Positions 35,861 through 45,637 of a stretch of 64,000 nucleotides of DNA are shown piece by piece. Numbering within the stretch: position 1 is the stretch's first letter; each line of letters begins with the position of its first letter. The position numbers and the translations under genes are program-made. This stretch comes from Kiloniella spongiae (GTDB lineage Bacteria; Pseudomonadota; Alphaproteobacteria; Kiloniellales; Kiloniellaceae): assembly GCF_001026905.1 (NCBI RefSeq), contig NZ_LAQL01000006.1, positions 186,001-250,000 of the forward strand. The letters run 5' to 3'. The notes beneath the pieces are model-generated. The model made no database searches. It had not been told where the DNA came from and saw only the letters and a program-made list of their open reading frames with translations.

Positions 35861-36064
35861 TACCGCCCCTCAAGAGGATGTATTGCGCTCAAACGCCGCG
35901 CATGCTTGTCCTCGTATTAACTCGGGCGTCCACTTGGACTTGCCAAATTGCGGAAAACAATTTGGTGTTGGCTCTAACCAGATCATAAAAAGGATCTGGC
36001 AAGTGCGACCGCACGCCCGGAACGAAGTGAGGACCAGCCTCAGTGACGCTTGAACGAAATAAAG
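35861..36064. repeat. Palindromic repeat R1 (full-length element)
   Basis: A ~200-base imperfect palindrome. The left arm contains GTATTGCGCTCAAACGCC, GCGCATGCTTGTCCTCG and ACTCGGGCGTCC; the right arm is its inverted counterpart (GGAACGAAGTGAGGACCAGC). The core holds two hairpins, CCAAATTG/CAATTTGG and CCAGATC/GGATCTGG. It ends 10 bases from the stop codon of the minus-strand gene at 36074. Confidence 0.9.
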
Positions 36065-36073
36065 TTCTAAGCG

Positions 36074-36565
36074 TTAATTTTTAGGCAAAAGGTGATTTGC
36101 AAAGGGATTGTCTATCACCATCAACCACCTACCATCAGGTTGTTTACGCAGCACCACAACAGAAAATCCGCTTTGTTCAATGGGCGAGCCATCTGGTGCC
36201 AGTCCTGACATCTTCCAGGTTGAGGAGTGAATAGCAATATCATCAGCCTGAATAATCTCATGACCGGTAATCGTAATCTTGGGATTTATGGCTATGAACT
36301 GCTTGAAAGCTTCTCGTAACGCTGGTGTGCCCTTGGCGGTGATTCCGGGCTCCCCAACCAAAACACCGTCTGGCTCAAAGGTAGCGAGCACACCTTCTAT
36401 ATCACCTGCAGCAACAGCCGCGTTATTTGTTTCGATTACGGTGTGAATCTGATTCTGTTCCATAATTTTATTTTCCTGACTATCTTGCGATTGAGCGTGG
36501 GTTGACTGTGTGCCGAGCAGAAAAACTGCAAGGCAAAATAATCTTTGAAAGGCTATTGGTTTCAT
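36074..36565 (-). CDS. Secreted SnoaL/NTF2-like protein (SgcJ/EcaC-type)
   Basis: A 163-aa protein with a signal peptide (LFCLAVFLLGTQSTHAQ) followed by one NTF2-like domain: VIETNNAAVAAGDIEGVLAT, FEPDGVLVGEPGITAKGTPA, LREAFKQFIAI and IEQSGFSVVVLRKQPDGRWL. The family has a cone-shaped fold used for many small-ligand and isomerase roles; no catalytic residues can be assigned. It lies downstream of a YafY-type regulator on the same strand with a 60-bp gap, and repeat R1 occupies its 3' flank. Confidence 0.82.
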   Translation of the reverse strand: MKPIAFQRLFCLAVFLLGTQSTHAQSQDSQENKIMEQNQIHTVIETNNAAVAAGDIEGVLATFEPDGVLVGEPGITAKGTPALREAFKQFIAINPKITITGHEIIQADDIAIHSSTWKMSGLAPDGSPIEQSGFSVVVLRKQPDGRWLMVIDNPFANHLLPKN

Positions 36566-36625
36566 GTGTGTTCCTCTGGTTATGGAAGAACACTAACCCG
36601 CACACATGTCAGAAAATGGCAGTAG

Positions 36626-37321
36626 TCACTTTGGGGAATTTTCACACGATTCAGCTTCACGCCAAAGCTTTATAAGATCGTGACGACGACGAGGATATCG
36701 TGTTGGTATTTCACAAAGGCTTTCAATGCGATCTGTGCGAAAATGCCGTATATCGTCCCTTAACTCGCACCACGCCGAAATAAGGCGTCCCCCATTAAAG
36801 TAAATCAAAAAGAACGGCCATATAACGCGCTCGGAACTTTTACCCGCGCCATCGCGATAGTGAACAAGCAGCTTCCGTTCGTTTTGGATTGTCTGCCTCA
36901 CCACCGTCATATCAATTGTCTCTTGATGAGGTGGTTCGCCTTGCCCCACAACGGCATATTGAGCTTCAACGCGATCAACAAGTTCGATCGGCATAACCGC
37001 TGTCAATCTTGCCATCGCTTTTCGGGCTGCTTCAGCCAACGGCGCTTCGGCCTTATCCGCCACCCAGAGTGACCCGAGAACCAATGCATCCACTTCTTCT
37101 GCCGTGAACATCACCGGCGGCAAAAGGAAACCCGGACGCAGAACATAGCCAACACCGGGTTCCCCTTCGATGCCTGCCCCCAGCGCCCGCAGGGACGCGA
37201 TATCCCGATAGAGCGTCCGGATTGATATGCCCAATGCTTGCGCCAGATCATTCCCCGAAACGGGACGGCGATGGCGTCTGAATTCCTCTATCAAGCTCAA
37301 AAGTCGTTCTGCGCGTGAAAT
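36626..37321 (-). CDS. YafY-type HTH/WYL transcriptional regulator, apparent ATT start
   Basis: A 231-aa regulator: HTH_11 domain (SRAERLLSLIEEFRRHRRPV, ALGISIRTLYRDIASLRALG) and WYL domain (ERKLLVHYRDGAGKSSERVI, WPFFLIYFNGGRLISAWCEL). The frame opens at a TTG (37357), but that codon lies in repeat R2 and has no ribosome site. AGGGGAGG (37327–37334) sits five bases before an in-frame ATT at 37321, and starting there gives M-SRAERLL, the canonical start of the family. ATT initiation is rare and is a known device for autoregulation. It probably controls the NTF2-like gene or neighbours. Confidence 0.8.
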   Translation of the reverse strand: MSRAERLLSLIEEFRRHRRPVSGNDLAQALGISIRTLYRDIASLRALGAGIEGEPGVGYVLRPGFLLPPVMFTAEEVDALVLGSLWVADKAEAPLAEAARKAMARLTAVMPIELVDRVEAQYAVVGQGEPPHQETIDMTVVRQTIQNERKLLVHYRDGAGKSSERVIWPFFLIYFNGGRLISAWCELRDDIRHFRTDRIESLCEIPTRYPRRRHDLIKLWREAESCENSPK

Positions 37322-37344
37322 ACTAACCTCCCCTGAAGTAATGT

Positions 37345-37567
37345 TACCGTCCCTCAAGAGGACGTATTGCGCTCAACCGCCGCGCATGCTTGTCCTCGTA
37401 TTAACTCGGGCGTCCGGTCGGACTTGCCAGATCCTAAATAGGATCTGGTTAGAGCTAACACCAAATTGCTTTCCACAATTTGGTAAGTTCAAGTGGACGC
37501 CCGGAACGAAGTGAGGACCAGCATTAGTGGCACTTGAACGAGAATACGTCTTCTTCAAGAGACGGTA
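37345..37567. repeat. Palindromic repeat R2 (full length, core inverted)
   Basis: A 223-base element with both termini preserved (TACCGTCCCTCAAGAGGACG on the left, the inverted form ending GAGACGGTA on the right). The core hairpins come in the order CCAGATCC/GGATCTGG then CCAAATTG/CAATTTGG, the reverse of R1 and R5. It begins inside the upstream flank of the YafY gene and ends 12 bases from the cupin stop codon. Confidence 0.92.
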
Positions 37568-43621: not shown

Positions 43622-43643
43622 TTACCCTATAGGAGAAGCCCTT

Positions 43644-44234
43644 ATGACATCAAATTCAATAATTAATCAGCCAATAGTTAAACCTATTGATAAAATGCCA
43701 TCGCCCATATCGTTTGAAATACAGCCTGCAAAGAAAACAAAAGACGGGTTAAATCTTGAACTCCACGTTATTGCAGAACTCATTAATGGTCCTGGCCTCG
43801 TCAAACGCGGTTACGTAAAGCCCAATATCCCAACATTTGGTGCTTTTGAGCTTCTATGTGATGAAGGGGAAATGATTGGTGGATCCGATAGCGCACCGGC
43901 ACCGCTTTCTTATTTAGCCGCAGGAATAGCTTTTTGCCTGCTAACCCACCTAAAGGGATATGCTGATAATTTAAAGCTGGATATTTCTTCAATCAAAATT
44001 GAACAAAAAATGAAATTCCAATCCCGTATCCCGGGGATGACTTCTGAAATGGGCGGCCAAATGGAAGGTTTATCCAATGGGATTGAGACTTTTGTTCTTA
44101 TAGAAGCTAAGGAAAATGACGATACGATCAAGAAAATGATCAATGTGGCTGAACAAGCTTGTATGGCTGCTCAAACAGTTATTAATGCTGTTCCAGCTTC
44201 AACAGAGATTCTTCTAAATGGCAGAAAACTCTAG
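43644..44234 (+). CDS. OsmC-family protein
   Basis: A 196-aa protein. The OsmC fold is shown by GGSDSAPAPLSYLAAGIAFC with the conserved Cys at the start of the long helix, and later AEQACMAAQTVINAV with the second Cys. In Ohr/OsmC enzymes this pair reduces organic hydroperoxides with lipoyl or thiol donors. AGGAG precedes the ATG by a short gap. Regulation by the divergent TetR protein through the paired palindromes suggests induction by an organic compound. Confidence 0.87.
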   Translation: MTSNSIINQPIVKPIDKMPSPISFEIQPAKKTKDGLNLELHVIAELINGPGLVKRGYVKPNIPTFGAFELLCDEGEMIGGSDSAPAPLSYLAAGIAFCLLTHLKGYADNLKLDISSIKIEQKMKFQSRIPGMTSEMGGQMEGLSNGIETFVLIEAKENDDTIKKMINVAEQACMAAQTVINAVPASTEILLNGRKL

Positions 44235-44329
44235 GCTTCAAAACCAAGGCATTATCTATGCTGCCGTTAAGCCTAATCAGCTGCATAGATAATTGTCTAA
44301 GGTACAATGGCTGCGCAAACTGCAAATGC

Positions 44330-45361
44330 TTAATCCACACCCCAATCCAGAATCACTTTACCAGAATTGCCGGAACGCATGATATCGAAGCCTTGCTGGA
44401 AGTCGTCGATGCTGTAGTGGTGGGTGATGATCGGGGTCAGGTCGAGGCCGCCTTGGATAAGGGCGGCCATTTTGTACCAGGTTTCGAACATTTCGCGGCC
44501 ATAGATGCCCTTGATCACAAGGCCTTTGAAGATCACTTCGTTCCAGTCAATGCCCATGCGTCCGGGGGGAATACCCAGCATGGCGATGCGCCCGCCGTGA
44601 TTCATGGCGCCAAGCATCCCATTAAAGGCGGGTTCGCTACCGGACATTTCGAGACCGACGTCAAAACCCTCTGTCATGCCGAGCTCAGCCATGACTTCTT
44701 CGATTGAGCTTTCCGTGACATTGACGGCATGCTTGATGCCCATCTTTTTAGCCAGCTCAAGGCGGTAAGGATTGATATCGGTAATCACCACATGGCGGGC
44801 GCCGACATGGCGACAGATTGCCGCCGCCATAATGCCGATGGGGCCAGCGCCTGTGATCAGCACGTCTTCGCCAACCACATCAAAGGACAGCGCGGTATGG
44901 GCTGCATTGCCAAAGGGATCGAGGATTGCCGCGATATCGTCAGAAATATCATCGGGCAGGATAAAGACGTTACTGGCAGGCAGGCAGAGATACTCGGCAA
45001 ACGAGCCTGTGCGATTCACCCCGACGCCCTCTGTATTGCGACAGAGATGGCGACGACCCGCACGACAGTTGCGGCAATGCCCACAGGTCAGGTGGCCTTC
45101 GCCCGAGACTCGCTGTCCGATTTCCAGATGTGAAACCTGACTGCCGACCTCTTCGATGGTGCCCACGTATTCATGCCCCACGGTCATGCCCACTGGGATC
45201 GTTGCCTTGGCCCAGTCATCCCAGTTGTAGATATGTACATCGGTGCCACAGATCGACGACTTGCGGATCTTGATCAGAACATCATTGGGGCCGATTTCCG
45301 GTTTGGCTTCATCGCGCATCCAGATACCGGGTTCTGCCTTTAACTTTGCCAAGGTTTTCAT
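44330..45361 (-). CDS. tdh: L-threonine 3-dehydrogenase
   Basis: A 343-aa zinc-dependent medium-chain dehydrogenase that oxidises threonine to 2-amino-3-ketobutyrate with NAD. Catalytic zinc: [17 protein letters not shown] and [12 protein letters not shown]; structural zinc: [18 protein letters not shown] loop: [20 protein letters not shown]. Full length. GGAG precedes the ATG. It follows kbl on the same strand, forming the usual kbl–tdh pair, but 280 bases including repeat R5 separate them. A short hairpin (ACCAGCC-aga-GGCTGGT, 45374–45390) lies just before the start. Confidence 0.96.
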
Positions 45362-45416
45362 GTTTTAACTCCAACCAGCCAGAGGCTGGTATATTATATT
45401 TTGTTTTGTAGTTTTG

Positions 45417-45637
45417 TACCGCTTCTCAAGAAAGCGTATTGCGCTCAGTCGCCGCGCATGCTTGTCCTCGTATTAACTCGGGCGCCCGGTCGGGCTTGCC
45501 AAATTGCGGTAAGCAATTTGGTGTTAACTCCTACTCTCAAAATTTAACTCCAACCAGATCCTATAAAGGATCTGGCAAGTGCGACCGCACGCCCGAGCTT
45601 ATGCGAGGTAAGCCTCAGCGGCGTTTGAGCGTACAAT
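45417..45637. repeat. Palindromic repeat R5 (full-length element between kbl and tdh)
   Basis: A ~220-base palindrome with both arms (TACCGCTTCTCAAGAAAGCG and GCGCATGCTTGTCCTCG on the left; the inverted arm ends GGCGTTTGAGCGTACAATA). The core hairpins are CCAAATTG/CAATTTGG then CCAGATCC/GGATCTGG, as in R1. It ends three bases from the kbl stop codon, inside the kbl–tdh operon. Confidence 0.92.

Follow-up and report, generated by a model that had tools for sequence, protein, structure and literature searches.

Palindromic repeat units confined nearly to one gene cluster in Kiloniella are probable members of a wide alphaproteobacterial family of mobile hairpin elements

The 64,000-nucleotide stretch of the Kiloniella spongiae genome analysed here (positions 186,001 to 250,000 of contig NZ_LAQL01000006.1; called the window below) carries a minus-strand gene cluster at 36074-46827. 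It comprises genes for a SnoaL-like protein, a WYL regulator, a cupin, an isochorismatase, LysE and LysR, and the genes which, from their domains and the gene order, we take to be tdh and kbl; plus-strand genes stand between LysR and tdh. The gaps between the cluster genes hold palindromic repeat units, and these units are the subject of this work. Between 35858 and 45647 nine repeat arms were found at five places. A 119-nt unit occurs there in six direct copies (at 35856, 37340, 38710, 39510, 39620 and 45412), with inverted arms besides, and a profile made from the nine arms recovered exactly those nine in the window, on the plus strand at 35856, 37342, 38709, 39510, 39620 and 45411, and on the minus strand at 35969, 37455 and 45546. 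Both searches agree with the six units at five loci described in a first-pass annotation of this DNA, and the profile reproduced its division into three two-armed units (R1, R2 and R5, about 215-235 bases) and three single ones (R3, R4a and R4b).

All six units are given here by their plus-strand coordinates. R1 (35858-36070; left arm 35856-35972 on the plus strand, right arm 35969-36070 on the minus strand) lies between the gene at 34827-35735 and the stop codon of the SnoaL-like gene. R2 (37342-37572), located between the cupin stop and the WYL start, is a complete two-armed palindrome with the ends TACCG...CGGTA. The single arm R3 (38709-38826) is found between the LysE stop and the isochorismatase start, and R4a (39510-39620) upstream of LysE, in tandem with R4b (39620-39748). 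The second hairpin of R4b bears an insertion that is common to one arm each in the Kiloniella genomes G009, G012 and G014. R5 (45411-45647) occupies the space between the kbl stop and the tdh start. In R1 and R5 the outer hairpin of the right arm has been lost, and the edges of these two units on the stop-codon side are therefore fuzzy. Compared with shuffled sequences, the two-armed units fold with z-scores of -4.1 (R1), -11.0 (R2) and -10.9 (R5).

The units had been described as lying directly downstream of minus-strand stop codons. This was true of the distances: measured from the profile ends, stop codons precede the units by 0 to about 68 bases, the gap being 3 bases for R1 (SnoaL-like stop at 36074), 7 for R2 (cupin stop at 37580), 24-32 for R3 (LysE stop at 38851) and 60-68 for R4b (LysR stop at 39809), with R5 overlapping the kbl stop (45640). 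The description fits R4 less well, because a terminator-like hairpin (39810-39794, minus strand) separates it from LysR, and its place is therefore no less upstream of LysE than downstream of LysR. None of the six units interrupts a gene, as had been stated, and in the fetched Kiloniella loci the units are likewise intergenic throughout. On the gene strand the one terminator-like site inside any unit is a weak one in R2 (37564-37547); the stretch as a whole has 17 such sites (11.1 expected). Searching Rfam gave only sub-threshold matches, one of them in the window stretch and two among five relatives; none was above the gathering score and none on the units.

An arm is about 104-120 nt long and consists of TACCG, a hairpin (H1), a conserved stretch, a small module and two further hairpins (H2 and H3). 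The conserved stretch is of two types, L (TTGCGCTCANNCGCCGCGCATGC) or R (TCGTTCANNCGCCACTAAGGC-like), and of 18 L-type arms 17 run antisense to the cluster genes. The stems of H1 and H2 were studied in an alignment of 27 arms, and stems again in a second alignment, that of the second model, made from 28 dispersed elements (see below) and 6 Kiloniella arms. Paired cells made up 95.2% and 92.1% of the stem cells, respectively, vs 16-40% when the alignments were slid. Changes on both sides of a stem were seen in 39 cells of the first alignment and 117 of the second, and changes on one side in 5 of 377 and 11 of 1184; in the first alignment three of five covariation measures exceeded all 500 shuffles. 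Stem variation with few G-U states would be unusual under selection on RNA. Since the covarying stems show very few such states, the pattern suggests that the structure is kept at the DNA level. The arms are also mosaics: 25 distinct combinations of module states occur in the 27 arms counted (the six arms that lack the outer hairpin are not in this count), and the ten pairs of modules each show at least one complete set of the four combinations of two states. Such shuffling is as expected if arms exchange modules, parallel change being an alternative source.

A covariance-model search for further copies had been proposed as a check, and a lack of copies elsewhere in the genome had been named as a refutation. 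Such a lack was observed in the host, although relatives turned up in other genera. In the 4.47 Mb host genome the model found no copy beyond the nine arms (next best E = 7.9), and the second model returned the same nine. In these genome searches the best 150 (genus), 64 (order) or 8 (class) candidates per genome were scored, and the counts are lower bounds. Six of the nine Kiloniella genomes searched carry 6-9 arms each, at least 41 matches in total. Among the 41 listed, 40 are located at the kbl-tdh-LysR-LysE-isochorismatase-cupin-WYL-SnoaL cluster or next to the gene that borders it on the left: 37 sit among the cluster genes, and three, on contig C73 of G013, have a cupin gene on one side and on the other the orthologue of the gene at 34110-34748 in the window, which is that bordering gene. 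The single match away from the cluster is on contig C108 of the same genome. The second model gave the same picture except for two weak matches, G014:C440 (E 4.5e-5) and G012:C12 (E 0.03). Two genomes with a shorter cluster region, G007 and G008, have no units, and no match was found in G011, which is 77% complete.

Comparison of single sites shows how units differ between species. An arm fills the gap between LysE and isochorismatase in G000 and G010, and in G012 (L021) and G014 (L025), which have no arm there, the two genes touch or overlap. At the filled site the arm is placed between two copies of the ~20-nt gene junction, which would be compatible with an insertion that duplicated the junction and also with a deletion between the copies. 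In G009 (L022) LysE was not seen at its usual place, and the arm before isochorismatase stands behind a LysR-type terminator hairpin and bears the insertion typical of the arm between LysR and LysE, an arrangement that fits recombination between arms. Contigs of G009 and G014 end inside or near the cluster (L022, L023, L024 and L025), and the left and right halves in G009 differ in sequence beyond the LysR-type terminator; the cluster of this genome may be rearranged.

Related elements outside the genus are dispersed. With the first model at least 12 of 61 genomes of the order, six of them Kiloniella, were found to contain them, and in the order-mates the matches are scattered over the contigs (at least 59 in G056, 12 in G032 and 9 in G033). 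The second model detected them in at least 18 of 385 alphaproteobacterial genomes, two of which are Kiloniella. Named relatives are on plasmids of Azospirillum, Methylobacterium and Methylorubrum; matches on Sphingobium and Niveispirillum plasmids span only a third to half of the query. The R2 unit had no match among plasmids, and one dispersed element had none among phages. The relatives share the plan hairpin, conserved linker of ~60 nt, hairpin, with a length of ~107-150 bp. Their first bases are TACC and their last ones GGTA or GGTG, a CTNR-like consensus lies outside each end, and the linker is conserved in elements across genera. The genome G005, from a different genus of the family, has a weak core match with 3 mismatches (L026:2006-2034), which may be a diverged relative or a chance match.

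The position of the dispersed elements relative to genes was determined from stop codons of open frames of 100 or more codons, a test used instead of the longest-frame gene context, which is noisy in GC-rich genomes. The input consisted of 44 matches, taken from 40 stretches fetched from G056, G032, G033 and G026. One match had no core motif and nine had unclear ends, which left 34 (of 43) with both ends placed. An element end abuts a stop codon in 18 of these 34, compared with 236 of 13600 random positions (1.7%); because L092 and L100 look like a single insertion shared by two related genomes, the count is about 17 of 33 independent cases. Ten of the abutting frames were scanned; Pfam domains are present in nine, and in four or five the domain reaches its end near the C-terminus. 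The domains are nearly or fully complete in frames for an asparagine synthase, a 2-oxoacid dehydrogenase acyltransferase, an imelysin and an amine oxidase, so that none of these genes has the look of a truncated one. Twelve named stretches were also fetched, four of which, pSymB among them, had no annotated genes in view. Four of the eight sites with annotated neighbours have an annotated stop exactly at the element: those of GntR in A. argentinense, of PhzF and a DMT transporter in A. ramasamyi, and of bhcC in M. extorquens (here the end of the element is TATC). Of the other four, two are at distances of 15 and 21 bases and two have no clear end at a gene. In the triplets flanking the 34 elements the middle base agrees in 24 cases (10.3 expected), a value reached by none of 5000 permutations. 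A gene for an IS630-family transposase (L175:179-1136) is 67 bases from an A. ramasamyi element; nothing shows that this transposase moves the element.

The explanation that we favour, and consider reasonably probable, is that the Kiloniella units are altered, locally multiplied members of a wide alphaproteobacterial family of non-autonomous mobile hairpin elements. The first-pass annotation had offered non-autonomous mobile elements with a target preference as one of two possibilities, and the dispersed relatives, the shared TACC/GGTA ends and the frequent abutment of stop codons support it. In this scheme the family would comprise small (~107-150 bp) mobile DNA elements present in several alphaproteobacterial orders and moved by an enzyme acting in trans. 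Outside Kiloniella, where they are dispersed, they would settle at the ends of genes, in many cases right at the stop codon, without breaking the gene. One element would have entered the kbl-tdh cluster in an ancestor of the six Kiloniella species and then multiplied, by local copying, nearly only within it, giving arms in tandem and in mirror image. Modules could pass between arms by gene conversion or template switching, which would also keep the stems paired, and the units would presumably have no essential function.

Several observations do not sit easily with this explanation. The ~20-nt duplication around the arm between LysE and isochorismatase differs from the pattern of the dispersed elements, and in the single arms of Kiloniella the right end GGTA is missing. 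Taken as a whole triplet, a 3-bp target duplication does not reach significance (7 of 34 exact vs 3.7 expected, reached in 327 of 5000 permutations), and the random control for stop abutment was unmatched for the flanking triplet. Pairs with double changes did not go beyond the shuffles in the first alignment (316/500), nor did further pair types in either (478/500 and 489/500). No transposase or autonomous partner was identified, Y1_Tnp being the only one searched. Finally, because the linker is well conserved over many genera, it may possibly have a function of its own.

The other possibility of the first-pass annotation, transcribed 3' elements that would end or protect mRNA, finds little support: on the gene strand the units hold a single weak terminator-like site, R4 comes after a terminator-like hairpin, and G-U states are very few in the varying stems. 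Another explanation is that the units are cluster-specific RNA elements, transcribed between the genes, which set mRNA processing or stability of single genes and are kept by selection in this cluster only. The antisense orientation of nearly all L-type arms (17/18), the near confinement to one cluster in six species, the stable folds, the conserved linker and the weak terminator-like site in R2 would suit such a role. Nevertheless, we regard it as unlikely, as the stems show few G-U states and few one-sided changes (see above), species differ in the presence and number of units per site, R4 stands behind a terminator-like hairpin and two genomes with the shorter cluster do without units altogether.

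Less probable still is membership in the CIR family itself, the intergenic repeats of Caulobacter, Brucella and other alphaproteobacteria that carry GANTC and are connected with the CcrM methylation system. By description the plan is the same (~110 bp, two long inverted-repeat arms with a linker, TA ends, intergenic position, alphaproteobacterial hosts; PMC2229807), and GANTC is present at the hairpin loop in 18 of 43 dispersed relatives and anywhere, short flanks included, in 26 of 40 others. In contrast, GANTC is seen in only 3 of 33 Kiloniella arms, in two of which it lies in the flank that precedes TACC, and the likeness is one of description. The units could also be imagined as attC-like recombination sites in an array whose cassettes would be the captured genes, since they are palindromic and clustered, have variable stems and mostly occur once per gap, and LysE was not seen at its usual place in G009. 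Yet the gene order is largely kept among species while units come and go, which makes this reading very improbable.

If the mobile-element explanation is extended, a more specific picture can be drawn, which is tentative and in our estimate rather doubtful as a whole: a widespread class of mobile DNA hairpins may target CTNAG-like sites exactly at stop codons by means of an enzyme that recognises hairpin shape, leaving genes intact, and in Kiloniella such hairpins may have become nearly private to one cluster, spreading over short distances with the arms kept alike by module exchange. Exact stop abutment could explain why palindromic repeats are found 3' of genes without any function in mRNA. 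The Kiloniella cluster is a natural setting for testing how repeats spread locally, as one and the same site can be compared, base by base, between species in which it carries units and species in which it does not.

Some other features of the locus deserve mention. In the segment 42725-42936 a tdh 3'-end fragment (89% identical to 44323-44508) is fused to a copy of the LysR start (like 40681-40715); the whole resembles a scar left between LysR and tdh by a tandem duplication. A plus-strand gene with a TIR domain (PF13676) at 40914-41852, also between LysR and tdh, has no match at the other Kiloniella loci compared and is possibly a defence gene. The small minus-strand gene pair at 42017-42644 resembles a toxin-antitoxin pair in size and overlap only; both genes have relatives at the equivalent place in G008 (L058:8640-9246).

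Our literature searches brought up nothing that we recognised as dealing with repeats of Kiloniella or with palindromes that abut stop codons. Identity with RIMEs was not supported, as model R2 gave no match in Sinorhizobium meliloti pSymB, which we take to carry them. What RIME and ABC repeats of rhizobia have in common with the units is that they are intergenic palindromic repeats of alphaproteobacteria (PMC2573895). Integron cassettes bounded by attC are variable, whereas the order of the genes between the units is largely conserved. The Rickettsia palindromic elements (RPE) are likewise palindromic elements of an alphaproteobacterium, with a length of 105-146 bp (PMC2229807), but they occur between genes and also in frame inside them, whereas none of the units here is inside a gene. 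REP/BIME sequences, which go with RAYT, are palindromic, mosaic and 3' of genes as well; they differ in length (20-40 nt for REPs by the abstract of PMC3733652, 107-150 nt here), and the Kiloniella units are not dispersed in the host genome. A RAYT partner is unsupported, Y1_Tnp (PF01797) being present in only two of nine element-bearing genomes outside Kiloniella; in four of six repeat-bearing Kiloniella it is on contigs other than that of the cluster. CIR, ~110 bp long with two arms and a linker, GANTC at the loop, TA at the termini and absence from genes (PMC2229807), match the units by description in size, hairpin arms and linker, intergenic position, bacterial class and TA termini, and the dispersed relatives also in their loop GANTC. 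In the Kiloniella arms, in contrast, GANTC is not conserved; these arms often form two-armed palindromes by mirroring and hardly occur outside one cluster, and stop-codon abutment is not among the CIR features described in the accessible part of that paper. We did not file the units as CIR, the two having been set side by side by description only. A difference from bacterial MITEs is that no parent transposon is known here (Y1_Tnp only was searched), and no clear target duplication extends beyond one base; the dispersed relatives are like MITEs in being short, non-coding and dispersed, with defined TACC/GGTA ends.

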